From Photobacterium sp. DA100 (GTDB lineage: Bacteria > Pseudomonadota > Gammaproteobacteria > Enterobacterales > Vibrionaceae), in contig NZ_CP119423.1 in NCBI RefSeq assembly GCF_029223585.1, positions 2,046,001 through 2,110,000 of the forward strand: a DNA stretch of 64,000 bases, read 5' to 3'. Shown piece after piece: positions 1,625 through 29,012 of this stretch. The notes under the pieces were generated by a model. That model did no database searches. It was not told the origin of the DNA and was given only the letters and a program-made list of their open reading frames with translations. The position numbers and the translations under genes are program-made. Positions within the stretch are counted from its first letter, which is position 1, and each line of letters begins with the position of its first letter.

Positions 1625-1645
1625 ACAACATACCCTCCCCAATCT

Positions 1646-2617: not shown

Positions 2618-2628
2618 GCCCACTGCCC

Positions 2629-3597: not shown

Positions 3598-3866
3598 ACT
3601 AATCTACCACCAATAATAAACTTCATGACAAATAAAACATAAACACTTACTATTTAAAATAAACCATATATCTAAGAAAAAGTTAAATAGATAGAATAAG
3701 TATCATCCAATAATCATCAGACAGTCAATGAAACTTACATTAATCTCTATGCAAATTAGTCATATCAATTATCAGCATTAATCGCTTCAACAAAGTTAAA
3801 AACTAAAATATCATTGATATCGTGTTATTTAGCCCCTTTTAAATCCAATAATTTTTAGGAATAAAA

Positions 3867-10895: not shown

Positions 10896-12230
10896 CTAGA
10901 ATCGGGTTGGAAAAAACGGCTGACGTAACGCCGTTTTAGGCATAGCGTTTTTCAGCACAGCATCCGAAAATTTACCGTGGGCAACAGGGTTACCCGTTGC
11001 ACGCAACACCAAGGACAACGCTTTGTCCGCATGCGAGAAAAACTTTTTCCAACCTGCACACAGATAGTTCAGCCCCGGCTCTCCGTCTTTGGTACGGATA
11101 AACCGGTTTTTTGGACATTCGCCATAACACGCAAACTGATAGTCACACTGCTGGCACTGGCTGGTAAGGGTGCGTGATTTAGCAAAGCCAAACTTCTGCT
11201 GCGCTTCGGAGTACGCCATCTCATCTAGTTTCTGATGATGAATATTGCCGACCCGGTAATCAGGGTACACATAATGGTCACAGGTAAATACATCGCCGTT
11301 TGGCTCCATCGCCAACCCTTTACCGCAGATCTCCCCCAAGGTACAAAGTGGATTTTTCCGCCCCATCCAGGTTTCAACACAGGCTTCAAAATACTGCACA
11401 AAGACGTTGCCAATATCGTGCTGCACCCATTCGTCAAACACAGCGATAAGAAAATCACCCCACCCTTCGGCCGATACACACCATGGCTCCACGACAGCGT
11501 TTTTGTGCCATGGATTTAATCTTTTATCTCCCTGGCGAAGCTGCTCTTGCGGTTTCCATTTCTGGGGCGCAGTGGTTCGGAACGTCTTCTGTTCAACAAT
11601 AGGGATAAATTGGATCTGGGGTGAACGTACTTCGTCTCGCAAAAAACGATACACCTCGAGCGGATTCTTGCTGGTCAGATTGTTAATACAGGTCAGCGTG
11701 GCAAATTTCACCCTGTGCTTATGAAGCAGCTCTACCGCCGCCATTACCTGCTTGAAGGTTCCGCGTCCAGCCCGGTTAGTACGGTAGGCATTATGAAGCA
11801 TTTCTGGGCCATCAATACTCAGCCCTACCAAAAAATTGTTCTGTGCCAGAAACTCACACCACTCATCATTGAGTAAAGTGCCATTGGTTTGCAGATCATT
11901 GGAGATAACGATGCCTTGTGGCTGGTATTTTTTTTGCAACTCGACAATCTTTCGAAAATAGTCGACACCGAGCATCGTCGGCTCACCGCCCTGCCATGAG
12001 AAAATGATCTCAGGTGTGTTCTGGCCTTCGATGTATTGCCGTATGTAGGTTTCCAAGGTGTCCTCATCCATTTGCGGTGAGCACCCCTTCTTATATTCAA
12101 GTAAGTCCTGCTTACTCAGGTAATAGCAATAGGTGCAATCAATATTGCACGCGGCACCAATGGGTTTTGCCATCACGTGCAATCGCTTCGATGCCTTGCC
12201 GTTGTATTGCGGGCCCTGAGTAATCAGCAT
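10896..12230 (-). CDS. Anaerobic sulfatase maturase (radical SAM)
   Basis: About 444 residues. The radical SAM cluster motif CNIDCTYC lies near the N-terminus, preceded by RLHVMAKPIGAA, and is followed by FSWQGGEPTM and LQTNGTLL. The C-terminal SPASM region has cysteines in CTLGEICGKGLA, CDHYVYPDYRVGN and CQQCDYQFACYGECPKNRF for auxiliary iron-sulfur clusters. Enzymes of this type oxidise a Cys or Ser of a sulfatase to C-alpha-formylglycine without oxygen, in the cytoplasm. The likely clients are the sulfatases at 27131 and 29013. ATG at 12230 is chosen because AGGTGG lies before it; the ORF extends to a TTG at 12251. It is the first gene of an operon with a HEAT/TPR protein and FadL, and a regulon-type dyad lies at 12305. 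Confidence 0.92.
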   Translation of the reverse strand: MLITQGPQYNGKASKRLHVMAKPIGAACNIDCTYCYYLSKQDLLEYKKGCSPQMDEDTLETYIRQYIEGQNTPEIIFSWQGGEPTMLGVDYFRKIVELQKKYQPQGIVISNDLQTNGTLLNDEWCEFLAQNNFLVGLSIDGPEMLHNAYRTNRAGRGTFKQVMAAVELLHKHRVKFATLTCINNLTSKNPLEVYRFLRDEVRSPQIQFIPIVEQKTFRTTAPQKWKPQEQLRQGDKRLNPWHKNAVVEPWCVSAEGWGDFLIAVFDEWVQHDIGNVFVQYFEACVETWMGRKNPLCTLGEICGKGLAMEPNGDVFTCDHYVYPDYRVGNIHHQKLDEMAYSEAQQKFGFAKSRTLTSQCQQCDYQFACYGECPKNRFIRTKDGEPGLNYLCAGWKKFFSHADKALSLVLRATGNPVAHGKFSDAVLKNAMPKTALRQPFFPTRF

Positions 12231-12251
12231 ATTCCACCTACTTATGAACAA

Positions 12252-12819
12252 TTCAGTAAGCTAATCATAAAACGTGCCACACACAGATGCTCGTTATACC
12301 CCTTATAACCATTAGTTATTGCGGATAAAGCCTCGCCATCCCTAAAAAACAACAACTTAAAACCAACAGAAGATTGATAATACCATCAAGATAGTTAAGC
12401 AAGGCTCAACACGAAAACCGGCAGAGCTTCAATTTGATGATGACAGATGCGCTCTTATCAATTTCAACACATTAAGAAAACAAGAAAAATGAAGGCAACA
12501 GGCATAAACACTCAGTGAAAATGAGCCACCATTCATCGCCAAATGACGTTCAAAGCACAAAAGGTATGCCATAGATCCACAGATCCAGCCCCACCCTTCA
12601 AACGTTGCGACATATTGCATGTATGAAAAAACCCACATAAATGATTTCAACGTATGGATTTTTAGTCATTTGTGAAGTCTGTCATAATAGCACTTATCCG
12701 ATTACTAGATTTGCTTTGATCTACGCACTTTCATGCTCACTTTGTCGCATTGTCCAACCCGATATATATACTTGTTGCGCATTGGTTATACAGGTTAAAA
12801 ATATTGCTTAGTTAAACAT
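12252..12819. other. Gene-poor interval upstream of the maturase
   Basis: It holds the promoter region of the maturase operon, including the dyad at 12305-12319, and the upstream region of the AT-rich small-gene cluster. A 73-codon minus-strand ORF at 12429-12650 has no recognisable features and is not called. A half-site TTGGTTAT occurs near 12783. Confidence 0.5.
12305..12319. promoter_or_regulatory. Regulon-type dyad before the sulfatase maturase operon
   Basis: ATAACCATTAGTTAT is a 5-5-5 interrupted dyad centred 82 bp before the maturase ATG, with a LysR-type T-N11-A core. A TATAAC hexamer lies six bases downstream on the minus strand. Closely related sequences precede three other transcription units of the island (14230, 24693, 28912). 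Confidence 0.6.
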
Positions 12820-13047
12820 ATGATTTATGACACTAAAGATGTTTTAGCGGTCAAGACTCATGCCACTCTGAAAAGAGCTATTGATAACTGTGGAGTTTTG
12901 TCGTTGAAAACTATTGTTAGCTCGCAATACGATGCAAATTATCCTGCGAACATAAGCTTACCTTTTGAGCCGAAGAAAGGGCCATACAAGGAAATGTTGT
13001 TTATAAAAAACCTCTGGATTGACAGTGGCAGAAGGAAAAAATACTAG
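12820..13047 (+). CDS. Small hypothetical protein, first of an AT-rich cluster
   Basis: A 75-residue ORF starting with ATG, ending in a basic tail (SGRRKKY). No family is recognised and it does not share the fold pattern of the three proteins after it. It is in line with them on the same strand and of similar AT-rich composition. It may be a real small protein or the remnant of a longer gene. Confidence 0.35.
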   Translation: MIYDTKDVLAVKTHATLKRAIDNCGVLSLKTIVSSQYDANYPANISLPFEPKKGPYKEMLFIKNLWIDSGRRKKY

Positions 13048-13065
13048 TAATTTAGGTACAATATA

Positions 13066-13443
13066 ATGATTTCAGTTCAAGCGTTGTATATGCAAAACCA
13101 AGTGATCATTGCCAAGCTTACTAAGCTTGGCATCACTGATACTAAATGCATGTTTGAAAATATTGAGGAGTTTTCGGTTACTGGTAGGTTAACCAATGTG
13201 AAAATTAACATTTTAATTAATCGAATTGAAGCAATCAAATCGATGATTACAATCAAATGTATAAACAGTAGTGTTTATGAGTTTAATGCTTTTAATCTTA
13301 AGTATAGTGATGAAAAATCATTAAATCTTTCAAATTGGATTGATATCAATATCAAAAACATAGTATTAATGGATATAAGAATCAATCGAGTAATAAATGA
13401 AATCAGCTTAGAAGAAGCACTAAACCTCACAACTAATCATTAA
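13066..13443 (+). CDS. Small AT-rich paralogue 1 (unknown family)
   Basis: A 125-residue soluble protein with no signal peptide. Its pattern is an N-terminal helix (IIAKLTKLGI), a glycine-containing turn and beta strands (SVTGRLTNVKINILIN), another pair of strands, then SLNLSNWID and a helical C-terminus. The same order recurs in the next two genes, best seen as NWI in paralogue 3 and TWLI in paralogue 2. An AGG lies about ten bases before the ATG. Codon use is strongly AT-biased compared with flanking genes, suggesting horizontal gain. I do not recognise the family. Confidence 0.55.
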   Translation: MISVQALYMQNQVIIAKLTKLGITDTKCMFENIEEFSVTGRLTNVKINILINRIEAIKSMITIKCINSSVYEFNAFNLKYSDEKSLNLSNWIDINIKNIVLMDIRINRVINEISLEEALNLTTNH

Positions 13444-13460
13444 AAAACATTAAGTAAAAC

Positions 13461-13778
13461 ATGGAAAGCAACAAGAAACAGATAATAGAATTAAACCAAA
13501 TCATTAGGATTGCTAAAAAGTTCAACATTGAGATTATTAAAATTCGCGGTTCTACAAATGGGGTTTGTGTTCATGGTGTAATGTCAAACCATCAGTTAAT
13601 CATAAATATAAATGATATCTGTCCCCGGTTAACTTGCGTGGAAATATATAAACCGCAAAGTAACGAAAATAGCCGAATTTTCTTTAACGGCCAAGAGTGC
13701 ATAATGACTTGGCTTATCACTCAATTTAAAGAAGCACATGAAGATTTTTCAAACACAATAAACAGAGATGAAAAATGA
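13461..13778 (+). CDS. Small AT-rich paralogue 2 (unknown family)
   Basis: A 105-residue soluble protein. It begins with a helix (QIIELNQIIRIAKKFNIEIIKI), then a glycine turn and strand (NGVCVHGVMSNHQLIININ), strands, and a C-terminal helix starting at CIMTWLITQFKEAHE. It is diverged but shares the helix-strand-strand-helix order of its neighbours. Its TGA stop overlaps the ATG of the next gene (ATGA), so the two are translationally coupled. Confidence 0.55.
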   Translation: MESNKKQIIELNQIIRIAKKFNIEIIKIRGSTNGVCVHGVMSNHQLIININDICPRLTCVEIYKPQSNENSRIFFNGQECIMTWLITQFKEAHEDFSNTINRDEK

Positions 13779-14134
13779 AAACTGAACAAGCGATAGCTAT
13801 GATGGTTAACCTTGGATGTAAGGAACCATATGTTTTAATGCAAGATAAGGAGGGGTATATCATTAGTAGCTCTTTAATTAATGTTACAGTCTCCGTCAGC
13901 GTTGACTTCACCTACCCTAACGACTCAATATTTGTTATTAAGTCCAAGGCTATAGTGGCAAATTACTCTTGTAGTTTCAAAATAAAATTTAATGATAAAT
14001 TCAGCAATTCCATTACAAATTGGATTGTAAAGGGCATGGCTGAAGCCAAAGAATTAGACATGAAACTGCAACTTTTACAGTTCAAAGATATGACAGTTAA
14101 AAAAGTCAATGATGGAATAAAGTCCGCCTTATAA
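13775..14134 (+). CDS. Small AT-rich paralogue 3 (unknown family)
   Basis: A 119-residue soluble protein. The segment MQDKEGYIISSSLINVTVSV aligns with the corresponding strands of paralogue 1, and KFNDKFSNSITNWIVKGM aligns with its KYSDEKSLNLSNWIDINI. The C-terminus is helical. It overlaps the preceding gene by four bases. An orphan immunity protein or small binding protein is possible, but nothing in the sequence proves a role. Confidence 0.55.
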   Translation: MKTEQAIAMMVNLGCKEPYVLMQDKEGYIISSSLINVTVSVSVDFTYPNDSIFVIKSKAIVANYSCSFKIKFNDKFSNSITNWIVKGMAEAKELDMKLQLLQFKDMTVKKVNDGIKSAL

Positions 14135-14229
14135 TCAATTTTCAGGAAGTAATGTTAGAACCCACAAATCAACACCAATAATTAATTATTAAATTCAACA
14201 ACTTAACTCAATATCGAGTTATACAGCAT

Positions 14230-14244
14230 ATAACCTTTAGGAAT
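14230..14244. promoter_or_regulatory. Regulon-type site before the FGE-like/phosphatase unit
   Basis: ATAACCTTTAGGAAT keeps the ATAACC-N2-TA half of the island dyad but has a degenerate second arm. It is centred 73 bp before the ATG at 14310, and a TACAAT hexamer follows 12 bases downstream, the same 12-base gap as at 24693. Weaker than the other three sites. Confidence 0.4.
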
Positions 14245-14309
14245 GGGAATTTTGCTTACAATAGACCTCTAAATTCAATGATCTGCTTGTTGATTCACGG
14301 AGGCCTCTT

Positions 14310-15116
14310 ATGCCATCAGCAACATTTAAGCGAGTTGCATGTTTCACCCTATCCGGACTCATCTTGATAGCTGCTACGTCTTGGGTCAACAATGAACTGT
14401 TTGCCTCTCCGCCCCACCCTGTGATGCAGCAAATAGAAGCGGACATGGTGTTGGTCGAGGGCGGGACATTCAAAATGGGGTCGAACTTACCAGAAGCTAG
14501 CAGGGCCGAAACGCCGGCAAGAACCGTTTCGGTCGATAGCTTCTACATCTCAAAGTTCGAAGTCACGCAGTCGTTATTTGAAAGTGTAATGGGCTCTTCG
14601 ATGAGTTATTTCAGCGATCCCGACGTGCCGGTCAACAATCTAAGCTGGCAGCAAGCCAATTACTTTATCGAACAGCTAAATAGCCTGACCGGAGCCAACT
14701 ACCGCCTGCCTACAGAAGCCGAATGGGAGTATGCCGCCAAAGGTGGAAACAAGAGTCAAGGTTTTATTTACAGCGGCTCTGACAATATTGATGACGTTGC
14801 TTGGTATTCCGAAAATGCCAACAACCGCGCCCACCCGGTCGGCCAAAAAAAACCTAACGAACTTGGCCTCTATGATATGACAGGTAACGTTGGGGAGTTT
14901 GTCATCGATGCCTACGACGAAGGCTTCTATCGCTACGGCCCAACCGATAATCCGAATAATGCACAAGACTCCAAAATCGGCCTTGCGCACAAGTCTGTTC
15001 GCGGTGGCAGCTTTGCCTATGACGAAACCCTGTCTGAAAGTTACCGGCGAGATTTTGCCAGCCAAAACATCATTATGGCCGACATGGGGTTACGGCTAGT
15101 GCGCGACACCAAATAG
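14310..15116 (+). CDS. FGE/SUMF1-fold secreted protein lacking the catalytic cysteines
   Basis: A 268-residue protein with an N-terminal signal or anchor (about 1-32) and a formylglycine-generating-enzyme fold: MVLVEGGTFKMGS, YRLPTEAEWEYAAKGG, ELGLYDMTGNVGEFV and SVRGGSFA are in the expected order. Active aerobic FGE has a cysteine pair after the GGS motif; here that stretch is YDETLSESYRRDF with no cysteine, and the mature protein has none. It is therefore unlikely to be a copper-dependent sulfatase-activating oxidase and may be a binding or accessory member. GGAGG lies six bases before the ATG. It precedes the phosphatase gene, probably in one transcript. Confidence 0.78.
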   Translation: MPSATFKRVACFTLSGLILIAATSWVNNELFASPPHPVMQQIEADMVLVEGGTFKMGSNLPEASRAETPARTVSVDSFYISKFEVTQSLFESVMGSSMSYFSDPDVPVNNLSWQQANYFIEQLNSLTGANYRLPTEAEWEYAAKGGNKSQGFIYSGSDNIDDVAWYSENANNRAHPVGQKKPNELGLYDMTGNVGEFVIDAYDEGFYRYGPTDNPNNAQDSKIGLAHKSVRGGSFAYDETLSESYRRDFASQNIIMADMGLRLVRDTK

Positions 15117-15206
15117 TCCCCTAAATTAATGGCCCTGGATGTCAGGCCCATTGTTTTCTCTTCTACACTTCAAGTGTTCGATTTCACCAGAATGGAGCTT
15201 CTATCA

Positions 15207-16907
15207 ATGAAGATAGCAACAGTACCTCGCCTGTTATGTCTTAGCTTAAGTTTAATCAGCGTAAATGCCGTCGCCGCACCTCCGCCAGCGCCAAAACTGG
15301 TACTTCAGATCACTGTCGATGGCCTACGCGGTGATTTGCTGGACCGCTATAAACACAACTTTGGCGATAAGGGCTTTCGTTATCTCATGGATGAAGGCAC
15401 CTATTACACCAATGCTCATTACCAGCATGGCAACACTGAAACCATTGTTGGCCACGTATCACTGGCTACCGGAGCGCCGCCTAGTGTACACGGCATGGTG
15501 GGTAACGTTTGGTACGATCGCCAAAAAGAGCGTTTGGTTTACAACGTTGAAGACGGCGACTACACCATGTTGACACAGGGTGCAGGGGTTAACCAATCCA
15601 CAGAGATCGACCCCACTCAAAAAACCGCGAAACTTGATGGCCGATCACCTGTCCCTATCCTATCAACTACCTTCAGCGATGAGCTGGCGGTTGCCAGCAA
15701 CGGTGAATCGAAAATCTTCTCGGTCTCCGTTAAAGACCGCGGTGCCATATCGCTGGCAGGCCACTCAGGCAAGGCCTTCTGGTTCTCTAAGGCCCAATCC
15801 GAGTTTGTCACCAGTAATTATTATTTTGATGAATACCCTGAATGGGTGACAGCTTGGAATACCGAAGGCTATCCTGCCCGCTATAGCAAGCAAAAATGGG
15901 AACTCAGCCTTGAAAGGGATAAGTACACCCTTAAGGAAGGCCCTCAAGAGCACAAGGTTGACCTTGCTGGCTTTAAACGTACTTTCCCCCATCCTTACGG
16001 CCCTTCGAGCTTCCAGTATTACAGCACCATGCTGACCTTAAGCCCGGCAGGTGATGAGCTTACTGCGGATTTTGCCGCAGCCCTTATGGAGCAAGAGAAA
16101 CTTGGCCAAGGTGACTTTACCGACTACCTCGCCGTGAGCTTTTCCTCCAATGATTATGTCATCCATATGTACGGGCCATCGAGCCTGGAAACGGAGGATA
16201 ACTTAATCCGCCTAGACCGCACGCTTGCAAACTTGCTGGCCGATGTCGAAAAGCAGGTCGGGCTGGATAATACCTTAATCGTCCTGTCCGCCGATCATGG
16301 AGTGCCGGAAGCTGCACCGACGGTAAATGCGCTAGGTTACAAAACAGCTAAGTACTTCAACCAGGATGCCTTAATCAACGAGCAGCTTGTCAGCCGATTA
16401 AACAAGGAGTTTGGCCTGGATGAAAACGCGGTGCGCTTGTACTCACAGCCTTATGTTTACCTCAACCATGAGGTTATTAAGGCCAAGGGCGCTTCTCTTG
16501 AAGCTGTCCAGAGGGTAGTTGCTGAGGAAATAACAAAGATCAAAGGAATAGAGCAAGCAGTTACAAGTACAGACGTCATGCAAAATAACCTACCCAATAC
16601 TCGCTTGATGCAACTGGTAAAAAACAACTTTCACCCACAGCGCTCCGGTGATATTTACCTGGTATTTACCCCACGTACCTATATCAATGATATGGACGGA
16701 TTGACCATTGCTTCAACTCACGGCTCACCTTGGCGATACGATACCCATGTACCGGTCATTTTTGCCGGTTACCAGATAGACGCCCAAAAGGTGTCTCGTG
16801 AAATAACCCCTTATGATATTGCCCCAACTCTGTCGAATGTGCTGGGCATTACCCAGCCAAGCGGGGCTACGGGTAAAGTCTTGAAAGAAATCAATTCTAA
16901 CCACTGA
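15207..16907 (+). CDS. Secreted PafA-like alkaline phosphatase/phosphodiesterase
   Basis: About 566 residues with a signal peptide ending at AVAA. Alkaline-phosphatase-superfamily features are ITVDGLRGD (metal aspartate), TETIVGHVS (nucleophile threonine region, as in PafA-type enzymes), MVGNVWYDR, DYVIHMYGPSSLETED, LSADHG and STHGSPWRYDTHVPVIF (metal-binding His). It should hydrolyse phosphate monoesters or diesters in the periplasm. ATG at 15207 has GGAG nine bases upstream; the longer ORF from 15129 has no such site. The sulfatases in the island belong to the same superfamily but use a different nucleophile. It follows the FGE-like gene by about 90 bp. Confidence 0.85.
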   Translation: MKIATVPRLLCLSLSLISVNAVAAPPPAPKLVLQITVDGLRGDLLDRYKHNFGDKGFRYLMDEGTYYTNAHYQHGNTETIVGHVSLATGAPPSVHGMVGNVWYDRQKERLVYNVEDGDYTMLTQGAGVNQSTEIDPTQKTAKLDGRSPVPILSTTFSDELAVASNGESKIFSVSVKDRGAISLAGHSGKAFWFSKAQSEFVTSNYYFDEYPEWVTAWNTEGYPARYSKQKWELSLERDKYTLKEGPQEHKVDLAGFKRTFPHPYGPSSFQYYSTMLTLSPAGDELTADFAAALMEQEKLGQGDFTDYLAVSFSSNDYVIHMYGPSSLETEDNLIRLDRTLANLLADVEKQVGLDNTLIVLSADHGVPEAAPTVNALGYKTAKYFNQDALINEQLVSRLNKEFGLDENAVRLYSQPYVYLNHEVIKAKGASLEAVQRVVAEEITKIKGIEQAVTSTDVMQNNLPNTRLMQLVKNNFHPQRSGDIYLVFTPRTYINDMDGLTIASTHGSPWRYDTHVPVIFAGYQIDAQKVSREITPYDIAPTLSNVLGITQPSGATGKVLKEINSNH

Positions 16908-16927
16908 TCAGGCTGCAGCGCATACAT

Positions 16928-16956
16928 AAAGAGCCTACTAAAACAGTAGGCTCTTT
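16928..16956. terminator. Bidirectional terminator between phosphatase and LysR genes
   Basis: A perfect 12-bp stem AAAGAGCCTACT / AGTAGGCTCTTT with a 5-base loop lies between two convergent genes. Confidence 0.85.
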
Positions 16957-17044
16957 GAGTTTCAGGCAAAACATTTATGGATTACTGGACCACACCTAAC
17001 TTAACCAATATCCGAAGGAAGCAGGCTACGGTTATATCGATAAG

Positions 17045-17962
17045 CTAGAGGAAATTTTCTTTTACCACTTTAAACAACAGCTGCCTCAACCAGCGGTGAC
17101 TGGTTTCTGTCGTACGACTTGGGTGCCATATCGCACAAAGATCATAAAGATCCTGGCCAAACGGCATCGGCAAAGCCTTGATCGCATAAAACTCCGAAAA
17201 AGATTCAATAGTGGACTTTGGCAACATACCAATGATGTCTGAACCGGCAATAATTGGCAGCATTTCCACCGCTCCCGGTGCTCGAACAACAATATTACGC
17301 TGATCAAGCTCCGGAATATCTTCGGCATTTAATAAGCTGCCACGGGCATGCCATCGGGCAACGACGACGTGATCCTCGGCAAGGAACTGCTCGATGGTGA
17401 CCGAGTCCGTCAAACGAGGGTGATGTTTGCAACACACCACACTCAATTCTTCCGAATACAAAACCTGCGATTTGAGCAGGCTGCGACCTCGTGGTGGTAA
17501 ATCTATCACCAAGTCATAACGTTGCAAACGTAGGTCTGCCTCCATATCCTCGGTAAACAACGGGTGAATTTCCAGTGCGATGTTCGGTGCTTCCAGGCGA
17601 ATTTGCTCGACCAAAACGGGGATAATACTGAAGCTAGCAACCGATACACAGGCAATCGAAAATATCCGCCTTGATGTTTTTGGATCAAACTCCCTTGAAG
17701 CTGATAACGTAGAACTGAAATTCTTCAGAGATGCCGCCAATGCCGGATAAATATCACTGGCAAAAGCGGTTGGTTCCACGCCATTAGCATTGCGATGAAA
17801 CAGGGGATCATCATAAATCTCCCGCAGACGCTTTAACCCCTTACTCACAGCTGGCTGGCTAACATCCATACGAACCGCCGCCTTTGACAGACTCTGCTCT
17901 TCATATACAGCGACAAATATGGGGATGAGGTTAAGATCAGTACTTTTCATCTCTCTTGCCAT
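17045..17962 (-). CDS. LysR-family regulator at the end of Bat operon 2
   Basis: A 305-residue LysR regulator with its helix-turn-helix at about residues 15-75 (QSLSKAAVRMDVSQPAVSKGLKRLREIYDDPLFHRN), then an effector-binding domain. It starts 56 bases after the batD-like gene on the same strand and may be cotranscribed with the Bat operon. Because it is embedded in the sulfatase island, it is the best candidate to bind the ATAAC-N5-GTTAT dyads (a T-N11-A LysR form); this is inference. Start choice between Met 1 and Met 5 is open. Confidence 0.88.
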   Translation of the reverse strand: MAREMKSTDLNLIPIFVAVYEEQSLSKAAVRMDVSQPAVSKGLKRLREIYDDPLFHRNANGVEPTAFASDIYPALAASLKNFSSTLSASREFDPKTSRRIFSIACVSVASFSIIPVLVEQIRLEAPNIALEIHPLFTEDMEADLRLQRYDLVIDLPPRGRSLLKSQVLYSEELSVVCCKHHPRLTDSVTIEQFLAEDHVVVARWHARGSLLNAEDIPELDQRNIVVRAPGAVEMLPIIAGSDIIGMLPKSTIESFSEFYAIKALPMPFGQDLYDLCAIWHPSRTTETSHRWLRQLLFKVVKENFL

Positions 17963-18018
17963 TTTAATATTTCAATACCCTTCCAATGATAGACATTAAT
18001 TATCAGTAACTTGAAGTA

Positions 18019-19341
18019 CTAATATCGCGCCTTGTGAACCTCATCTAGCTTAGGTAATACTTTTGGCAGCTTAAACCTTCCACCAGATTGCCGCTGGGCA
18101 CGGATCAACCGCCACATTTTCTTAAACACGTGCGCTTTCTCATCGCCAGCCTGGAGCTGACCACTTGTTATCAACCAGTCGCTAGTATCCTTTGCTTTAT
18201 TCATTTCAAGCTGATTGGTTAAAAGGCGCAATTGCCGATAAAGTTTCGTCCTGGCCTGAGCCCACTTTCCTCCCCTGACATCAAGCCAGAACAGAAGCCA
18301 TGGTGGTCTGGGGCGAGTGCGATAATAACGTCGGCCAAGCGAGAAAGCGGTTAGCACGATGCCCATTGTGGTCATGGCAGCAATCAGGATACGCAGGTTC
18401 GCTTTCACAAATGAGGCTGGTGTATGGCGGGCGTGGAATTGCTTACCCTCAACGGTAACGGTTTCCAGTTGATTAGTTTGGGCATTCCACCACTGAAATT
18501 GCTGATCTGGGAAACTAAAGTCGCCACCCTGCTGGATCACATACACGGTTTCCTCAACCCTGGAAGACTGATAGTTTCCTCGGGTTTGTGAGTCTTCCAA
18601 ACGATGAGGCTGGGGATAAGCTTGAAAGTAATCTGACGCTTCCCTTGTGAGCAGGTTTGGCAGGAGGACGGAAAGCGTGTCCTGGGCCTGAATCGTCACT
18701 TTGCGGGTAATTGCATCGCCGACTTTCAGCTCTTCGCTCGATTGCTGCCACTCCTGTTTGACTTGCACATTTGTGGCAGTAAACCAAGGCGTTTGATCAC
18801 TGAGCAACCCTGACGGCAGGTTGACATCAAAAGCCAAAGGCTGGGTATACATGGTACCCGATACATTGGAACCATCAGGTGCTGACACTTGTACATTCAC
18901 CGCCAGCGAAGGTACTGAATAGGAACCGGACTTTATCGGGTACAAGGTGATTTCCCACCGTTGCCGTGACCATGTTACCCCCCCTTTTCGCTCGGTATAA
19001 TTGGTCGCGAGCTGATTGCGCTGCTTGGCAATTACATTGGGGATCTCCACTGGCTCTATCTGCGTTCCGCCGGTAAACCAACGCGGGGTCGCAACTTCAA
19101 TGTATAAAATCACCTGTTCATTTACACTAAAGGAAGGCACTTTCTTACCGGACTCATCGGTACTGTTTACTGCCAGCCATGCCTTAATCTCGACATCATT
19201 GCTACGCTGTAAATCCGGAATCGTTACAGCGTAACTCAAACTACTGGCAAGAGAGGCAAAAAAGACAAAAATAATGGCGGCTACAGAGGTTAAATATTTC
19301 TGCCAATGTGGTAACCACGTTGCTGGAAATAGCGATGTCAT
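18019..19341 (-). CDS. BatD-like membrane protein (operon 2)
   Basis: A 440-residue protein with an N-terminal signal/membrane segment (about 18-38), an extracytoplasmic beta-rich region with BatD-type segments (NEQVILYIEVATPRWFTGGTQIEP, YPIKSGSYSVPSLAVNV), and a membrane helix near 318-338 followed by a cytoplasmic tail. BatD proteins are partners of BatA and BatB in the membrane. The ATG overlaps the stop of the VWA/TPR gene (ATGA), showing coupling. Its equivalent for operon 1 would lie outside the window. Confidence 0.78.
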   Translation of the reverse strand: MTSLFPATWLPHWQKYLTSVAAIIFVFFASLASSLSYAVTIPDLQRSNDVEIKAWLAVNSTDESGKKVPSFSVNEQVILYIEVATPRWFTGGTQIEPVEIPNVIAKQRNQLATNYTERKGGVTWSRQRWEITLYPIKSGSYSVPSLAVNVQVSAPDGSNVSGTMYTQPLAFDVNLPSGLLSDQTPWFTATNVQVKQEWQQSSEELKVGDAITRKVTIQAQDTLSVLLPNLLTREASDYFQAYPQPHRLEDSQTRGNYQSSRVEETVYVIQQGGDFSFPDQQFQWWNAQTNQLETVTVEGKQFHARHTPASFVKANLRILIAAMTTMGIVLTAFSLGRRYYRTRPRPPWLLFWLDVRGGKWAQARTKLYRQLRLLTNQLEMNKAKDTSDWLITSGQLQAGDEKAHVFKKMWRLIRAQRQSGGRFKLPKVLPKLDEVHKARY

Positions 19342-21038
19342 TGCTGCAATTCTCCGCCTTCCTTTGGTTGATTTGATTGATTACGTTGGATCTGGAATTT
19401 TGCCCGCAAGAAATACTTTGGATCGGCCTCGACCCGCTTCAACCACTTGTCAGCGAGCTCATTGCTCCCCAAGATCTCATTAGCATTCAGTGTTTCTTTA
19501 ATCATTAATTCAGCTGCAGTCTGCTCATCGGCACCTTCCGCTGTGCGAGGTTTGTCATCACTTAGTTCGAAGGACTCTTCCGGCCCATCTGTGGTCCCGG
19601 CCTGGCTCTCACTGGTACGGTTGATTTCATCGACAATACCGCTAATGACTTTTAGGTTATGCTCAACACTTGGTCGCAGCTCAGTCGACAAGGTATCCTT
19701 CTCTGCCAAGGACCGTAATAAATCTCTTGCCGCTAGATACTCACGTTCTCGAGCCAACGCACTGGCGGCATTGTATAAGCCAAAGTCGGTATCCATTTGC
19801 AAAAAAACACGGTGGGCTTGCTTATACTCACTGGCGTAATAGTAGGCGGTTCCCTTCCTCAGTGGGTCAACAAAATGTTTTGCCGCTTCAAGATATTGTC
19901 CTTGGTTGAACAGGCGCTGGCCTTGCTGATCGGGAGTTAACCACAAATCCCACCACCCTTGAACCGTTTTGTCCCAAATTGTCACTTGTTCAGCGGGTTC
20001 CGCAGTTTGCGCCTTGGATGCAATAATGGTTTCAGCATTAACCGCAGGCGCCGCCAATAGCGTTCCGGTCAGTGACAGTACGACGCACCATTGCACCAAC
20101 CAGCCTTTTCGAAACCAAAGCAGCATCGCCAAAGCAATCGGTAACAACAGCTGATAGCCCATATCTTGCCAGGGCATAGAAGACTCGCCATTTAGCTGCA
20201 TATTTCGCTCGACTGTGCGGTTGAGCCTTTCAACATCGCTATTGTCTACCGTGATTTCGATGAAACGCCCCCCAACTTCGCTCGCCAACTGGCGTAGGGA
20301 AGCAAAGTCAGCAGGGGCACTACTGACAACATCCCGATTGCCCGCGCCCAGAATCATTAACTGGTAAGGCTTGTCGCTGAAAAATGCGTTAAAAGCAGCA
20401 ATGGTATTAGGATTTGCACCATCAGATACCAACAATACCGTCGAACCGGGTCTTCCCTGCAGCAACTGCTCGATAAGCGGTAAGGTTTTTTCGGCAAATT
20501 TACCCTCCGCCGGCATGATATCAGGAGAAATTGCAGCCAAAATCGGCTCGAACACCTTGGTATCCTGAGTCATCGGCATTGCGACATGGGCAGATCCGGC
20601 ATACACAACCAACCCCGTGCTCCCTCCCTGTCGTAACTCGAGTAGATCGCGCACCTTCTGCTTGGCACGCTCCAGTCGACTTGGCGGCAGGTCTTGCTGC
20701 AACATTGACTCACTGCTGTCGAGCAACACCAGCAATGACGCTTTGTCTTCACCAAACGGAGAGGCTTGGCGTTGCCAGGTCGGCCCAGCACAGATCAGGA
20801 TGGCCATCGCAATAATCACCATCAGCAATTTAAGGGGGAGTTGCTTGCTCCAACCTTTTTCCCCAATGGTTAATACCTGACGGAGGTGCTTGGGCAATAC
20901 TTCTTGCCAGCCCGGTTGGTTGGCTTCACGCCAGCGGAGCCAGAACAACAGTCCCATCGGTACAAGCACCAACAGCCACAACGGCCTGATGAAATGAAAT
21001 TGGCTGATCGCCTGCTGCAGGCTGAGACTATCAAACAT
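19338..21038 (-). CDS. BatB/BatC-like fusion: VWA domain plus TPR region (operon 2)
   Basis: About 566 residues from the ATG at 21038, which has GGAG upstream. Order: membrane segments (about 18-35 and 55-75), a VWA domain (LLDSSESMLQQDLPPSR, LLVSDGANPN), a membrane helix pair near 290-330, then a periplasmic TPR-like region (GQRLFNQGQYLEAAKHF, YYYASEYKQAHRVF) and an acidic/charged tail. In some organisms the VWA (BatB) and TPR (BatC) parts are separate genes; here they are one chain. The MIDAS DSSES is conserved. It overlaps both neighbours slightly. Confidence 0.85.
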   Translation of the reverse strand: MFDSLSLQQAISQFHFIRPLWLLVLVPMGLLFWLRWREANQPGWQEVLPKHLRQVLTIGEKGWSKQLPLKLLMVIIAMAILICAGPTWQRQASPFGEDKASLLVLLDSSESMLQQDLPPSRLERAKQKVRDLLELRQGGSTGLVVYAGSAHVAMPMTQDTKVFEPILAAISPDIMPAEGKFAEKTLPLIEQLLQGRPGSTVLLVSDGANPNTIAAFNAFFSDKPYQLMILGAGNRDVVSSAPADFASLRQLASEVGGRFIEITVDNSDVERLNRTVERNMQLNGESSMPWQDMGYQLLLPIALAMLLWFRKGWLVQWCVVLSLTGTLLAAPAVNAETIIASKAQTAEPAEQVTIWDKTVQGWWDLWLTPDQQGQRLFNQGQYLEAAKHFVDPLRKGTAYYYASEYKQAHRVFLQMDTDFGLYNAASALAREREYLAARDLLRSLAEKDTLSTELRPSVEHNLKVISGIVDEINRTSESQAGTTDGPEESFELSDDKPRTAEGADEQTAAELMIKETLNANEILGSNELADKWLKRVEADPKYFLRAKFQIQRNQSNQPKEGGELQQ

Positions 21039-22074
21039 TGTTTTTCTCCATGCCCTGACCAAGCCTTCTACCACGGTTCAGCGTCGCCATGGTAAAGGCA
21101 ATAAGGTACATCACCACGACTATTGCAATCAGGTAGTGGTGAATACTTTGTTTAGGGCGGTAGGTCGAACTCTCATAGAGCTGAGGTTCTAGCTTGCCGA
21201 TTTCTTGATAAGCCCCCAGCAGCGATTCACGGTCGAGCGCAACAAATGCCTGCCCGCCAGATTCATTGGCAACACGATTGATTGTTGCCATATCCAATGC
21301 AGCCTCGCCAACCGTTTGCGGATCCCCCATCGCTATCATATGGATCCTGACACCCTTAGCTTTAGCCACTTTGGCTGCTTCTATCGGTTCAACAAAACTT
21401 CCAGTGTCATTGCCGTCGGTCAGCACAATCGCCACCTTTTCCCGGTCTTCGTCCCCTTTTTCTTGATGGCTTTGATCAAACACCTTTATTGCCAGTCCCA
21501 TGGCATCACCTAGATGGGTACTCTGACCGGCCATCGCTACTTCTGTTTGATTAAGCAGCGCAAGCCATACGTCTTGATCGGCGGTAAACGGGGTCTGCAA
21601 AAAAGCGGCATCACCAAACAAAATGAGCCCCAAGCGGTCGCCCTGTCGTGTTTTGGCAAAGTCGGCCAGTACTTCCTTGGCGGCATCCAGGCGGGAGACA
21701 TTGTTTCCCGTTGAAGAGGAGAAATCCCGCTCGGCCATCGAACCAGACAGATCAACCAACACCATCACGTCCCTACCGAAGCTCTCCCGGATCTGTGGCG
21801 CTCCCAGTATTGTCGGTTTGGCCAAAGCGGTAATCACCAATATCCAAGAAATCACCAGAGTCATTCGCTGCCACCAGGATGGTGACAGCTGGCTTGCCCC
21901 CGCTGACGGCACTTCGCCCAGGGCTTCTATAAGCTGACTGAAAAAAGGCACTTTTATTGCGCTTTGCTTGGTGCGGTATGCCGGCACGAAATAGAAGACA
22001 ATCAAGGGGAATGGCAACGCCAAAAACCACCATGGGTAAACGAACTCCAGATCGAACAATGAGAAATTAAACAT
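21031..22074 (-). CDS. BatA-like VWA-domain membrane protein (operon 2)
   Basis: About 347 residues from the ATG at 22074, preceded by AAGGGGAAGG. It begins with a membrane segment (YPWWFLALPFPLIVFYFVP), has a second near residues 60-80, a VWA domain with intact MIDAS DLSGSMAERD and VLTDGNDTGS, and a C-terminal membrane helix (HHYLIAIVVVMYLIAF). It is very similar in layout to the protein at 88-1122. Role as for that protein: the membrane part of a MoxR-driven Bat complex. Confidence 0.88.
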   Translation of the reverse strand: MFNFSLFDLEFVYPWWFLALPFPLIVFYFVPAYRTKQSAIKVPFFSQLIEALGEVPSAGASQLSPSWWQRMTLVISWILVITALAKPTILGAPQIRESFGRDVMVLVDLSGSMAERDFSSSTGNNVSRLDAAKEVLADFAKTRQGDRLGLILFGDAAFLQTPFTADQDVWLALLNQTEVAMAGQSTHLGDAMGLAIKVFDQSHQEKGDEDREKVAIVLTDGNDTGSFVEPIEAAKVAKAKGVRIHMIAMGDPQTVGEAALDMATINRVANESGGQAFVALDRESLLGAYQEIGKLEPQLYESSTYRPKQSIHHYLIAIVVVMYLIAFTMATLNRGRRLGQGMEKNNV

Positions 22075-22660
22075 GGTGGCCTTCCCCTTGTTTTTTATTT
22101 CCATTGAGCAGCTTGGCCAAAGCCGCTCTGAGCGAGACATGTTTCGTCATTGACCGGCCTTCGTGCTCCCGAATCCAGCACAAAGCTTTCTCGCGTAGCA
22201 GTGCTTGTTCTTCCCTACCAAGGGTGATTGAAGGGTCAACCAATGACTGAACCCACCGGGTACCAAGCTCATCCTGGAAGGTCACTCTGCCATTGCCTAG
22301 CTCATCAAGCTTTTGCAAAAAGGCGTGACCAAATAGCTTAGCGTTGGCTGGCTCCAAATAAACCAGAACAATTTTCAGTATTGAAAATAAAGCACCGTCG
22401 AAAGCGCCACTATCTACACTGCCTTCAAGGCCTCGATGCATAGGCAAGCGAGTAACCGCTGTCCGCGCCTCAGCTCGATAACGGTTATGCCACCAGCGTA
22501 CTAGCCGGCGATAGCAAAGGTAGCCGGCAATAACGCACAACAAGACAAGCAGGACTTTCCAGCCTATCGTCTGTGGTATCCAACTGACGCTTTCAGGTAC
22601 GGTAACATCATACAATTCACGCAGAATGTAGGTGCTAGGAGGCGAATGTTCGATGCTCAT
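22067..22660 (-). CDS. DUF4381 domain membrane protein (operon 2)
   Basis: A 197-residue protein with a single membrane segment at about 32-50 (VLLVLLCVIAGYLCY), preceded by SWIPQTIGWK, which corresponds to SWLPNAPGW in operon 1, and a soluble C-terminal part. It overlaps the batA-like gene and starts just after the DUF58 stop. Function unknown beyond the Bat context. Confidence 0.75.
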   Translation of the reverse strand: MSIEHSPPSTYILRELYDVTVPESVSWIPQTIGWKVLLVLLCVIAGYLCYRRLVRWWHNRYRAEARTAVTRLPMHRGLEGSVDSGAFDGALFSILKIVLVYLEPANAKLFGHAFLQKLDELGNGRVTFQDELGTRWVQSLVDPSITLGREEQALLREKALCWIREHEGRSMTKHVSLRAALAKLLNGNKKQGEGHHV

Positions 22661-22662
22661 GG

Positions 22663-23625
22663 CTACTGCCTCCCAACAAGCCGCTGGAACTGGGCGATAT
22701 GTGATCCCGAGGTATCCAGCTCAATAAACGGTAATTGCTTCAACGCCATCAGGCGGGTCAGAGACTGGCGAGTAAGCACACTGCGCTCGCTCAAAGTCGC
22801 ACTGGCCTGAGCGACTTTTTCCTTGCTATCAAGAGTCAGCTGATACTGGCCATCCCCCACAACCCAGTTCGACTTGGCCAGCTCTCCCGGCAGGGTTTGC
22901 TCAAGCGGATCGTTAACCAGCACGGCCAACACATCATTATGGATTTGCAGCTGCTTGAGCTGCTCGAGGTGATGCTCGTCGCAATCACGCCAATCGGTAA
23001 TAAAAACCAGGGTTGATTGGGCTAAATTCATCCGCTTAAGCTGTTCCAGCCAAAGTGAAAAGCTCACCCTTTCACTATTGGTGGTATCAACACTTAACTG
23101 CTGGTTAGCTTTCGCCAATAATTTGAGCTGCGCCATGAACGCATGCTGCGAGCGCTGGGACTGACAGTGATAGATTTTCTCTGCGGAAGCGACAACCACA
23201 CCGACACGATCGCCATCTTTCAAAACCCGCCAGCCACACATGGCGGCGATTTCCGCTGCAATGACCGACTTCATCACCTGGGTTGACGAAAAAAACATTT
23301 GGCTACGCTGATCGACACAGATGATCACATTGCGGTCTTTTTCTTCGGTATAGCTACGTACATGCGGTTTGCCGGTACGCAATGTGACTTTCCAGTCTAG
23401 GTTTCGAATATCGTCACCCAGTTGGTAATGGCGAAGTTCTTCGAAGTTCAAACCTCGGCCGCGAAACAAAGAATTGTGCCTGCCCGATAGTACACTGCCG
23501 GCTTTCAAGTGCGGAAGTAGACTAAAGGTTCCGACTTGGGACTGCAGACGCACCAAGCGCGAATAATCACAATAAATCCGACCATCGAGCCCTTTTGATT
23601 GAGGAGCAATGTTTGGCTTTGCCAT
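22663..23625 (-). CDS. DUF58 domain protein (operon 2)
   Basis: A 320-residue protein with the DUF58 hallmark GRGLNFEELRHYQLGDDIR and DWKVTLRTGKPHVR near residues 57-92, then a VWA-like fold (VIICVDQRSQMFF, LVFITDWRDCD). It starts 12 bases after the moxR stop. It is strongly similar to the operon 1 protein at 1646-2617. Confidence 0.88.
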   Translation of the reverse strand: MAKPNIAPQSKGLDGRIYCDYSRLVRLQSQVGTFSLLPHLKAGSVLSGRHNSLFRGRGLNFEELRHYQLGDDIRNLDWKVTLRTGKPHVRSYTEEKDRNVIICVDQRSQMFFSSTQVMKSVIAAEIAAMCGWRVLKDGDRVGVVVASAEKIYHCQSQRSQHAFMAQLKLLAKANQQLSVDTTNSERVSFSLWLEQLKRMNLAQSTLVFITDWRDCDEHHLEQLKQLQIHNDVLAVLVNDPLEQTLPGELAKSNWVVGDGQYQLTLDSKEKVAQASATLSERSVLTRQSLTRLMALKQLPFIELDTSGSHIAQFQRLVGRQ

Positions 23626-23637
23626 AGTGCCCCCCGA

Positions 23638-24624
23638 TTATCCGATCTCTACATGGTCAAGCAGCTCTTCGACAATCCTCAGATGATTAATTCCGTCAGC
23701 CAGTGCATCGTAGGTCAGTGTAAAACGGTGCCCCAGTACCATGGGTGCCATGGCACGTACATCATCAGGCAAAACATGATCACGCCCCTGTAGCCATGCA
23801 TAAGCACGGGCACATTTATCCAAGGCGATGGAGGCTCGAGGGCTCGAGCCGACCTCAATCCATTTGACCAAATTGGAGTCGGGGTAACGTTCTGGTTTAC
23901 GGGTCGCCATAACCAAAGCGACAATATAACGCTCAACCAGATCAGAAACGGCAATGTGGGGAAGTTGGCGGCGGGCTTCGAGTACCACATCAGCGTCGAT
24001 ATTTCCCAGCGCTTCATCTTGCGCTCGGGCAGCCTCGGTACCTAACTCTTCTCCTCGGACTAAACGGATAATGTCACGCTCTGCATCATCCTCAGGGTAT
24101 TCGACGGTAACCTTCATCATAAAGCGGTCCATCTGTGCTTCCGGCAACGGATATGTCCCTTCTTGCTCTACAGGGTTCTGGGTTGCCAGCACCATAAAAA
24201 GTTCAGGCAGTTGATGAGTCGTATCGCCTACGGTAATTGTTCCCTCAGCCATAGCTTCGAGCAAAGCCGCCTGGACTTTTGCCGGTGCACGGTTGACCTC
24301 ATCGGCCAGGACAATGCTATTGAAGATTGGCCCTGGTTGAAAATGCAGCTGAGGTTTACCGTCGAGATCCTGATAGATCTCTGTTCCTGTCACATCCGAT
24401 GGCAAGAGATCTGGAGTAAACTGAATTCGTCCGAAATCAGTGTTGAGCAAATTTGCCAATGATTTTACCGACCGTGTTTTAGCCGTACCGGGTAGCCCCT
24501 CTAGCAAGATATGACCGTTAGCCACTAACCCAATAACCAAAGCTTCAACAACATGGCGTTGACCAATCACACTTTTTTCTGTTTGCTCAATGAGCTGCTT
24601 GATAGCCTGTTGTGCTTGGTTCAT
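23638..24624 (-). CDS. MoxR-family AAA+ ATPase (operon 2)
   Basis: A 328-residue AAA+ ATPase with Walker A GLPGTAKT, Walker B VLADEVNRAP, and the MoxR segments LATQNPVEQEGTYPLPEAQ and VGSSPRASIALDKCARA. GAGGGTAAG lies before the ATG. First gene of a six-gene operon MoxR, DUF58, DUF4381, BatA, BatB/C, BatD, with a LysR gene after it. An ATAAC-N5-GTTAT dyad is centred 76 bp before the ATG, unlike operon 1, where no such site is seen. Confidence 0.92.
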   Translation of the reverse strand: MNQAQQAIKQLIEQTEKSVIGQRHVVEALVIGLVANGHILLEGLPGTAKTRSVKSLANLLNTDFGRIQFTPDLLPSDVTGTEIYQDLDGKPQLHFQPGPIFNSIVLADEVNRAPAKVQAALLEAMAEGTITVGDTTHQLPELFMVLATQNPVEQEGTYPLPEAQMDRFMMKVTVEYPEDDAERDIIRLVRGEELGTEAARAQDEALGNIDADVVLEARRQLPHIAVSDLVERYIVALVMATRKPERYPDSNLVKWIEVGSSPRASIALDKCARAYAWLQGRDHVLPDDVRAMAPMVLGHRFTLTYDALADGINHLRIVEELLDHVEIG

Positions 24625-24692
24625 GACTTACCCTCACCTATGTTACGTAATTACGCCATTGTTCAATTGCCACTATCGTACCTGCAAGACCG

Positions 24693-24707
24693 ATAACTAT
24701 TGGTTAT
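24693..24707. promoter_or_regulatory. Regulon-type dyad before Bat operon 2
   Basis: ATAACTATTGGTTAT is a perfect 5-bp inverted repeat with a 5-base spacer and a T-N11-A core. On the minus strand a TACGAT hexamer follows 12 bases downstream, so the dyad would sit at about the -35 region of the operon promoter. Confidence 0.6.
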
Positions 24708-24726
24708 AATAGCCATTACAGCCAAG

Positions 24727-27069: not shown

Positions 27070-27093
27070 TGATTAAAGATAGAGCATGGAGAC

Positions 27094-27118
27094 AAAAAAA
27101 AGGGCTCCGAAGAGCCCT
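27094..27118 (-). terminator. Intrinsic terminator between sulfatase and cytochrome genes
   Basis: The minus-strand stem AGGGCTC / GAGCCCT with a TTCG tetraloop is followed by at least seven T residues. It lies just after the sulfatase stop and 25 bp before the cytochrome ORF, so cytochrome expression needs read-through or its own start inside this short gap. Confidence 0.85.
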
Positions 27119-27130
27119 AAATTCAACATC

Positions 27131-28678
27131 TTATTTATTTGGCGGCTGCTGGAGTTTTTCCATCACCTGATCGAGAGAGAAACTTGCCGCTTTTTGCCTT
27201 GGCGGAAACGCCTTGAATGTTTCTAGGAACTTAGCCACGTAGGCTTGTGCTGGTACCAGCATAAAGGCACGGTCTAGCATCCAGTCGTAATAAGAATTGG
27301 AGGTTATATCGGCCACCTCGTAAGGATCCATCCTCAAGTTGAAGATCTTTGGTACACGGAGCGGGGTAAAAGGTTCAGCCCAAATCCGCAGTGTCCCTTT
27401 GGCTCGCTGCTCCAAGAAAACAATCTTCCAGTTGTTGTAGCGCAGTGAACTCAGATCGCCGTCATCGGTAAAATAGAAGATCTCTTCTCGTGGACCAGTA
27501 TCGACTTCCCCGGTTAAATAAGGCAAGAAGTTGTACCCATCAAGATGGACTTTAAAATTCTTGTCACCCGCCTGATAGCCTTCTATCAATTTCTCTTTGA
27601 TCTGATCATCACCGGCGGCGGCGAGGAAAGTTGGCATCCAGTCCATATGGTGCATGATTTCGTTGGACACACTACCCGGCTTGATCTTGCCCGGCCAGCG
27701 CACCATGGCAGGCACTCGGTATGCCCCTTCCCAGTTGGTATTTTTCTCACCACGGAATGGGGTTAAACCGGCATCAGGCCACGAGTTCATGTGTGGGCCG
27801 TTATCGGTCGAATAGAAAACAATTGTATTGTCCTTGATACCGAGATCATCGACTTTCTTCAGCAGCACACCGACGTGGTTGTCATGCTCAACCATACCGT
27901 CGGCATAGAAGCTAATACCCGTCTTACCCGAATTCTCTTCTTTTACATGGGTCCGGAAATGCATACGGGTCGCATTCCACCATACAAAAAAAGGCTTCTC
28001 GGCTTTAACTGCACGATCCATAAAGTCCAATGCCGCTTCAAGGGTTTCATCATCGACAGTTTCCATCCGTTTACGGGTCAACGGGCCGGTATCTTCGATT
28101 TTGCCATCAGCGTAGGAGCGAATCACACCACGTGGCCCGAATTTCTTGCGAAACTCAGGGTTTTTAGGGTAATCGACATTTTCGGGTTCTTCTTCTGCGT
28201 TGAGGTGATAGAGATTGCCGAAGAACTCATCGAAACCGTGGTTGGTCGGCAGGTGTTCATCTTTATCGCCAAGGTGGTTCTTGCCAAACTGCCCTGTCAT
28301 ATAACCCAGGGGTTTCAATAGCTCAGCGATAGTGGCATCTTCCGCCTGCAAGCCGAGATCTGCACCAGGCAGGCCCACTTTACTTAGACCAGTTCGCAAT
28401 ACCGTTTGCCCGGTAATAAACGTCGAACGACCGGCGGTACAGGACTGTTCACCGTAGTAATCGGTAAACATCATCCCTTCTTTGGCAATGCTATCGATGT
28501 TCGGCGTGTTATAACCAACCAACCCAAAGGTGTAGGCACTAAGATTGGTCTGCCCGATGTCATCCCCCCAAATAACCAAAATATTGGGTTTCTCTGCTGC
28601 GATACTACTGCTTGCGGCACTGACCAACAGGGTCGCAAGTATCATTATTCGGCTTTTGAAGCCTTTTCTCGCTGTCAT
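27131..28678 (-). CDS. Secreted type I sulfatase (CTAGR active site), copy 1
   Basis: About 515 residues from the ATG at 28678 (GAGG upstream), with a signal peptide ending at SIAA. Sulfatase features are NILVIWGDDIG (calcium aspartates), the formylglycine site CTAGRSTFITGQ with Cys near residue 80, GKNHLGD, and STDNGPHMNSW. The usual core is C/S-x-P-x-R; here Ala replaces Pro (CxAxR). It should hydrolyse a sulfate ester in the periplasm once the Cys is converted, probably by the maturase at 10896. It is closely similar to the divergent copy at 29013. Substrate not readable from sequence. Confidence 0.9.
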   Translation of the reverse strand: MTARKGFKSRIMILATLLVSAASSSIAAEKPNILVIWGDDIGQTNLSAYTFGLVGYNTPNIDSIAKEGMMFTDYYGEQSCTAGRSTFITGQTVLRTGLSKVGLPGADLGLQAEDATIAELLKPLGYMTGQFGKNHLGDKDEHLPTNHGFDEFFGNLYHLNAEEEPENVDYPKNPEFRKKFGPRGVIRSYADGKIEDTGPLTRKRMETVDDETLEAALDFMDRAVKAEKPFFVWWNATRMHFRTHVKEENSGKTGISFYADGMVEHDNHVGVLLKKVDDLGIKDNTIVFYSTDNGPHMNSWPDAGLTPFRGEKNTNWEGAYRVPAMVRWPGKIKPGSVSNEIMHHMDWMPTFLAAAGDDQIKEKLIEGYQAGDKNFKVHLDGYNFLPYLTGEVDTGPREEIFYFTDDGDLSSLRYNNWKIVFLEQRAKGTLRIWAEPFTPLRVPKIFNLRMDPYEVADITSNSYYDWMLDRAFMLVPAQAYVAKFLETFKAFPPRQKAASFSLDQVMEKLQQPPNK

Positions 28679-28825
28679 ATAAACCTCAGTCACTAAGTTA
28701 AAATGGTGCCGTGCAACAAAAATTAATAGCTCACAATGAGTCGTTCCGCGACTTACATCGGTAAAATTAATGGCGTTTATTTACCGGGAAATACACCGCG
28801 CTAAAAAAGCAACGCAGAAAGATGA

Positions 28826-28841
28826 TGTGACAAATATCACA
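28826..28841. promoter_or_regulatory. CRP site between the divergent sulfatases
   Basis: TGTGACAAATATCACA matches the CRP consensus TGTGA-N6-TCACA at all ten specific bases. It lies about midway between the two sulfatase start codons and could activate either or both when cyclic AMP is high. Confidence 0.8.
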
Positions 28842-28911
28842 AACAGGATTTTGCTCACCTTGCCTCTTACATCAAATAAAGCCATATAAAACAGAGCATT
28901 ACATCAGCCAC

Positions 28912-28926
28912 TTAACTAAAGGTTAT
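28912..28926. promoter_or_regulatory. Regulon-type dyad before sulfatase copy 2
   Basis: TTAACTAAAGGTTAT keeps the TA-N2-GGTTAT block of the island motif and an almost complete left arm. It is centred 94 bp before the ATG at 29013, and TATAAA follows six bases downstream. Confidence 0.55.
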
Positions 28927-29012
28927 AACTGCTATAAAGCGACAGAGACCCTTAGTTGCCAGTAACTTAGCCCCAACAACAAATCAACTCTCTAATTTTG
29001 CATGGAGTTACT

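Follow-up and report, generated by a model that had tools for sequence, protein, structure and literature searches.

The window analysed here, a 64,000-nucleotide stretch of the Photobacterium sp. DA100 genome (source genome G000, C1:2046001-2110000), contains a sulfatase island in which four intergenic sites, judged by sequence, are very likely the operators of a single regulon controlled by LysRa, a LysR-type regulator encoded last in the island's MoxR-Bat operon (17045..17962, minus strand). The regulon is probably real, conserved and narrow, its predicted members being a sulfatase, an anaerobic sulfatase maturase, an FGE-like protein, a phosphatase and the MoxR-Bat proteins. Judged by the maturase, the closest named relatives of the source genome are Photobacterium species.

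Operator 1 (ATAACTAATGGTTATAAGGGGTATAACG; 12292..12319, minus strand) precedes the maturase-HEAT/TPR-FadL operon, operator 2 (ATTCCTAAAGGTTATATGCTGTATAACT; 14217..14244, minus strand) the FGE-like/phosphatase operon, operator 3 (ATAACTATTGGTTATAATAGCCATTACA; 24693..24720, plus strand) the MoxR gene, from which it is oriented away, and operator 4 (TTAACTAAAGGTTATAACTGCTATAAAG; 28912..28939, plus strand) sulfatase 2. A first-pass annotation of the window had reported sites at 12305, 14230, 24693 and 28912, with dyad centres 73-94 base pairs (bp) before start codons. All four are indeed present, and the distances to the chosen ATGs are 82, 73, 76 and 94 bp for operators 1, 2, 3 and 4. The T-N11-A dyad it described, ATAAC-N5-GTTAT, is also present, as part of a 28-bp operator of three half-sites rather than as one 15-bp dyad. 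These half-sites, H1 (ATAAC), H2 (GTTATA) and H3 (TATAAC), are arranged as ATAAC-N5-GTTATA-N5-TATAAC, so that H1-H2 and H2-H3 form two overlapping, conserved T-N11-A boxes with centres one helical turn apart. The shared string TA-A/T-A/T-GGTTAT of that annotation is the centre of the longer element, and the downstream TATAA-like hexamer that it took for a promoter element is the third half-site, the likely -10 boxes lying further out. Its description of the site at 14230 as degenerate also does not hold, as the full operator there scores 30.0 with our first matrix (second in the window) and 27.3 with a second matrix (third). For H1, H2 and H3, respectively, the mean information per column is 0.76, 1.34 and 1.38 at maturase/FGE, 1.25, 1.36 and 1.21 at sulfatase 2, and 1.17, 1.16 and 0.51 at MoxR, which suggests that H2 is constant while its partner half-site differs by promoter. 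Both dyads have the T-N11-A form; the MoxR operator has a weak H3, and H1 is less strong at FGE|maturase.

The 15-bp dyad was rejected as a genome-wide pattern, being no commoner than chance by shuffles and a reversed control. With up to two mismatches, ATAAC-N5-GTTAT has 35 matches in the window (31.35 expected); exact copies number 10 in the 6.01-Mb genome versus 14 for the reversed control, and those of CTAWWGGTTAT 18 versus 20, operators 1-4 making up 4 of the 18. The first position weight matrix was built from 28 distinct FGE|maturase sites out of 52 of 62 relatives' loci, with one site from the near-identical G025 and none from G000; the ten loci in which the search expression failed stayed outside it (L011, L051-L053, L058-L060, L065, L077 and L079). 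The window's top four places under this matrix are exactly operators 1-4 (39.3, 30.0, 22.5 and 21.8), and the next place scores 9.4. Only 2 of 1000 column-permuted matrices gave a window match of at least 20, and none gave two. A second, sequence-only model (R1), made from 36 sites with none from G000 or G025, recovers all four in a scan of the source genome, at ranks 1, 2, 4 and 5 (E 2.2e-5 for operator 1, the best in the genome; 0.0029 for operator 3; 0.0097 for operator 4; 0.013 for operator 2). The four sites are thus among the genome's top five matches. The first-pass annotation's statement that no copy precedes Bat operon 1, a second MoxR/vWA operon found at the window's left edge (88-3597), is correct in substance: the best match there is weak (6.3 at 3749, second matrix).

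Conservation in relatives follows the genes of the island. FGE and maturase are divergent in the 62 relatives' loci, 82-258 bp apart, and a sequence like ATTCCTATTGGTTATAAAGGGTATAACA recurs between them in Photobacterium and Vibrio, with weaker forms in Shewanella electrodiphila and Psychromonas marina. The squid symbiont Aliivibrio fischeri also has the island, in strain emors.2.1 (L065). The operator recurs before FGE|maturase, MoxR-Bat and sulfatase 2 in Photobacterium, Vibrio and Aliivibrio, and three Aeromonas, in which FGE is not divergent, have it before the maturase (scores 21-36). We compared 42 LysRa-bearing stretches (40 hand-picked from 79 genomes, and the two sulfatase-2 stretches L202 and L203) with 11 stretches without LysRa, using sulfatase 2 identity cut-offs of 75% and 60%, respectively, and excluding L199 and L201. 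With the first matrix at a score of 8, the LysRa-bearing stretches have a site upstream of 30/32 sulfatase 2, 32/37 MoxR and 22/22 maturase genes, the maturase sites overlapping the training set. The corresponding figures for the 11 stretches without LysRa are 0/7, 0/8 and 0/1, and their best score anywhere is 12.4, in L200. MoxR has a site to itself in 24 of these 32 cases and uses that of sulfatase 2 in the other 8, since the divergent genes are only a short distance apart there; two of these 8 have an additional site scoring 20-27 with the second matrix. That matrix at a score of 15 yields 37/37 and 32/32, which are not independent figures, as its training set included some of the scored sites. 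Three LysRa-less stretches (L197, L198 and L205) keep MoxR at 73%-81% identity and have no site scoring at least 11. In the excluded L199 (G211, sulfatase 69% identical), a score-16 site stands before a LysRa-like gene.

The operator also holds a fixed position relative to the promoters it is predicted to serve. Numbering it 1-28, the predicted -10 boxes are TATGAT for the maturase (12264..12269, minus strand; operator positions 51-56), TACAAT for FGE (14257..14262, plus strand; positions -17..-12) and TACGAT for MoxR (24675..24680, minus strand; positions -17..-12). For sulfatase 2, the predicted -35, GCGACA (28939..28944, plus strand), abuts H3 and falls in columns 28-33, which are conserved in 33 sulfatase-2 sequences; an 18-bp spacer separates it from the predicted -10, TAACTT (28963..28968, plus strand). 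A TAnnnT box was found at 51-56, to within 1 bp, in 34/36 sequences of the maturase and 31/33 of sulfatase 2; on the opposite strand, one was found at -17..-12 in 31/36 FGE and 18/19 MoxR sequences (the 19 being those in opposite orientation, under 135 bp away and at least 70% identical). The rate at other offsets is 2%-11%, and on the unused sides, taken as a control, it is 8/33 behind sulfatase 2 and 4/19 behind MoxR. Three Aeromonas, without a divergent FGE, one Shewanella and one Psychromonas account for the five FGE-side misses. Taken with GCGACA, the conserved registers imply that H3 touches the -35 of the forward promoters (maturase and sulfatase 2), and that the -35 of the reverse promoters (FGE and MoxR) falls between H1 and H2. 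In the relatives, one operator serves both divergent promoters, FGE and maturase, the H2-H3 centre lying ~34 bp from either -10.

LysRa has the domains of a LysR-type protein (PF00126, helix-turn-helix, E 1.2e-17; PF03466, substrate-binding, E 3.8e-21), and by sequence the solved regulators of this type nearest to it include 2uye and 1uth, both of which we take to be DntR. Orthologues (E<=1e-80) are present in 79 of 197 family genomes. In a search of these genomes with R1, which used stricter filters, a strong operator (E<=0.01) was found in 73 of the 79 genomes with LysRa versus 4 of the 118 without. The first-pass annotation had named the LysR genes at 17045 and 31052 as candidate regulators. 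This association favors the former, and LysRa is likely the regulator of the predicted operator; the latter, LysRb (plus strand), has orthologues in just 7 of the 197 genomes and is an unlikely choice. Strong support for the broader proposal of one LysR regulon comes from conservation at orthologous promoters, fixed promoter geometry and LysRa co-occurrence; the form of the operator, the role of the hexamer and the candidacy of 31052 are corrected here.

We suggest that LysRa would bind the operator most likely as a tetramer. The operator lies just upstream of the -35, and LysRa would for this reason most likely activate sulfatase 2 and the maturase, and perhaps FGE, on a ligand signal; a sulfate ester as that ligand is a guess. 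At the MoxR promoter, LysRa would control its own operon if, as gene order suggests, the MoxR-Bat genes and LysRa form one transcript. We offer more tentatively, as the less probable extension, that MoxR-Bat could be an assembly or quality-control chaperone for the sulfatase system and, jointly with this, that the choice of half-sites could set whether LysRa activates or restrains each promoter (H1 and H2 at MoxR, H2 and H3 at FGE|maturase, and the full set at sulfatase 2).

A number of observations weigh against control of all these promoters by LysRa. Ten FGE|maturase loci have an altered H2, and eight of the ten bear the name Aliivibrio; under the first matrix five MoxR sites score 5.5-7.6 and two sulfatase 2 sites 4.7-6.8, below the threshold. 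Six of the 79 LysRa genomes have no match at E<=0.01. Among them is G070 (LysRa 47% identical), whose stretch L201, with maturase, sulfatase 2 and MoxR, has no site scoring at least 11, the best being 7.9, before FGE. The three Aeromonas genomes have LysRa (62%-63%) yet no operator before FGE or MoxR. Conversely, four genomes without a LysRa orthologue have strong sites: G119 (one before MoxR, another beside sulfatase 1), G189 (preceding a MoxR of 84% identity), G152 (E 0.002, before a SulP sulfate permease, L212:8465) and G022 (E 0.0096). The Fisher p-value for the association (2e-41) is overstated, as the genomes are related and kinship is uncorrected. In the classical LysR arrangement, the regulator gene is divergent from its target, with a primary site near -65 and a second near -35. 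The LysRa gene follows BatD on the same strand, divergent from no target, and the box centres inferred from the conserved -10 boxes (-55/-44 forward, -32/-43 reverse) differ from the textbook -65. As to G119, its island (L210 and L219) is missing LysRa, sulfatase 2 and the greater part of FGE and keeps two strong operators, which are possibly relics of a recently lost regulon.

Some of these observations would be explained if the operator were real and bound by another protein co-inherited with the island. Strong sites persist in G119 and G189, which have no LysRa orthologue, the Aeromonas with LysRa have only one site, boxes of the LysR-type transcriptional regulator kind follow a loose consensus, and binding by LysRa is itself a prediction. 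Against such a binder, a pair of T-N11-A boxes is what one would expect of LysR proteins (PMC5002191, PMC4834489), LysRa travels with the island, operator and LysRa are associated (73/79 versus 4/118), and LysRb is confined to 7 of the 197 genomes; we regard a different binder as improbable, though the most credible of the alternatives. It would be less plausible still to regard the sites as conserved core promoter parts or traces of duplicated promoters. The third half-site, TATAA, does resemble a -10, but separate -10 boxes occur beyond the operator, at a constant register and on the same strand as the gene they serve; moreover, the operator is used in both orientations, the flanks of the three promoter classes share little besides such boxes, and orthologous promoters in the LysRa-less islands compared are without it. 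The least probable account, to which we give almost no weight, is a chance resemblance of AT-rich intergenic dyads: the unremarkable dyad counts above are what it would predict, but the failure of every permuted matrix to give two such window matches and the conservation of the operator across genera are not.

Beyond the island, the R1 match ranked third in the source genome (C2:47086-47112, L207:5086; E 0.0047) lies 314 bp before an alkyl sulfatase gene. It sits within a small reading frame of 74 amino acids, which G007 (L228) conserves in frame, and among 25 alkyl sulfatase loci of other genomes a site of this type is found only in one of G025's and one of G007's; three further loci have matches scoring 9.5-14.3, each positioned within the gene. 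We did not count it as a fifth site, given its place in a conserved reading frame and its rarity at other alkyl sulfatase loci, and the match is probably fortuitous. A partial match before a LamB porin has an E-value of 0.084.

The island comprises three gene sets and several single genes. On the minus strand, the maturase (radical SAM/SPASM by Pfam; 10896..12251, probable ATG 12230) scores 497 bits with TIGR03942 (cutoff 349) and passes as an anaerobic sulfatase maturase. It is followed by the HEAT/TPR gene (9843..10880; Pfam), placed in the operon by the 15-bp gap and adjoining the maturase in most relatives' loci that also carry FGE, and by a FadL-type outer membrane protein gene (8618..9802; PF03349, E 2.1e-56), also a presumed member. 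The plus-strand pair encodes the FGE-sulfatase-domain protein (14310..15116; PF03781, E 3.6e-44) and a phosphodiesterase/phosphatase resembling PafA (15129..16907; PF01663, E 6.8e-49; NF042991 451 bits, under the cutoff of 650). Bat operon 2 (18019..24624, minus strand; Pfam) consists of MoxR (23638-24624), DUF58, DUF4381, BatA-like, vWA and BatD genes and ends in LysRa. Sulfatase 2 (28998..30578, plus strand, probable ATG 29013; PF00884, E 2.8e-53) has the active-site motif CTAGR, as does sulfatase 1, which lies with a cytochrome/TPR gene on the minus strand; we take CTAGR to be the Cys-type sulfatase motif on which such maturases act. LysRb completes the set.

Operators 1 and 2 are separated by an insert (12320-14216) of 33.5% GC over 12330-14210, versus 45.8% for the window. 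It holds three small reading frames (125, 105 and 119 amino acids) without a Pfam match; the 125-amino-acid frame was found only in its own genome among 60, and not in the plasmid collection, and the 119-amino-acid frame matches it at 21%. G025, with a 99% identical maturase, has a single operator and 133 bp in place of the insert. Compared by eye, the sequence on either side is close to that of G025 as far as the operators, and both operator copies differ from G025's; it seems, then, that the insert arrived with operator-like ends of its own. In L166, L176, L211 and partly L178, a second sulfatase-maturase pair (~60% and 54% identical) lies just upstream of the orthologous MoxR-Bat operon (83%-85%), whose promoter keeps the operator; a LysR gene belonging to that pair (25%-26%) is in view in three of the four. 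One Bat machine may be common to two sets of sulfatases.

MoxR-Bat operons occur widely, and we are aware of no settled function for them. A tight regulon that, in Vibrio, Photobacterium and Aliivibrio, links one of these operons with a sulfatase and the corresponding maturase would give it a concrete, testable role, and the defined operator, the candidate regulator and a natural control (islands with neither) are tools for finding the inducing sulfate ester.

Our literature search, by title and start of abstract, with subscription journals mostly missing and regulon databases outside its scope, did not find this regulon; as far as that search goes, it is new, and of known LysR type. The NCBIfam model nearest to LysRa is that of BsrA (PA2121 of Pseudomonas aeruginosa; 186 bits, cutoff 480), followed by LeuO (NF007063; 177 bits, cutoff 262), and LysRa is an equivalog of neither. 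The choline-sulfate utilization regulator (TIGR03418) is likewise a LysR protein linked to a sulfatase; LysRa was rejected as a member of that family (52.6 bits, cutoff 324.8). BsrA shares the T-N11-A form but binds 765 regions with little sequence beyond it, whereas the LysRa motif is long and its sites few; the word "sulfatase" is absent from the main text of its description (PMC8407307). Another parallel is offered by ThnR of tetralin degradation, a LysR-type regulator with T-N11-A boxes that acts on a number of promoters, among them a close divergent pair, and is partly made from a promoter of its own regulon (PMC4834489). The same source gives ThnR one primary site per divergent promoter and a DNA loop (PMC4834489), whereas the LysRa regulon has, in the relatives, a single 28-bp operator between both promoters, and its regulator is encoded last in the MoxR-Bat operon.

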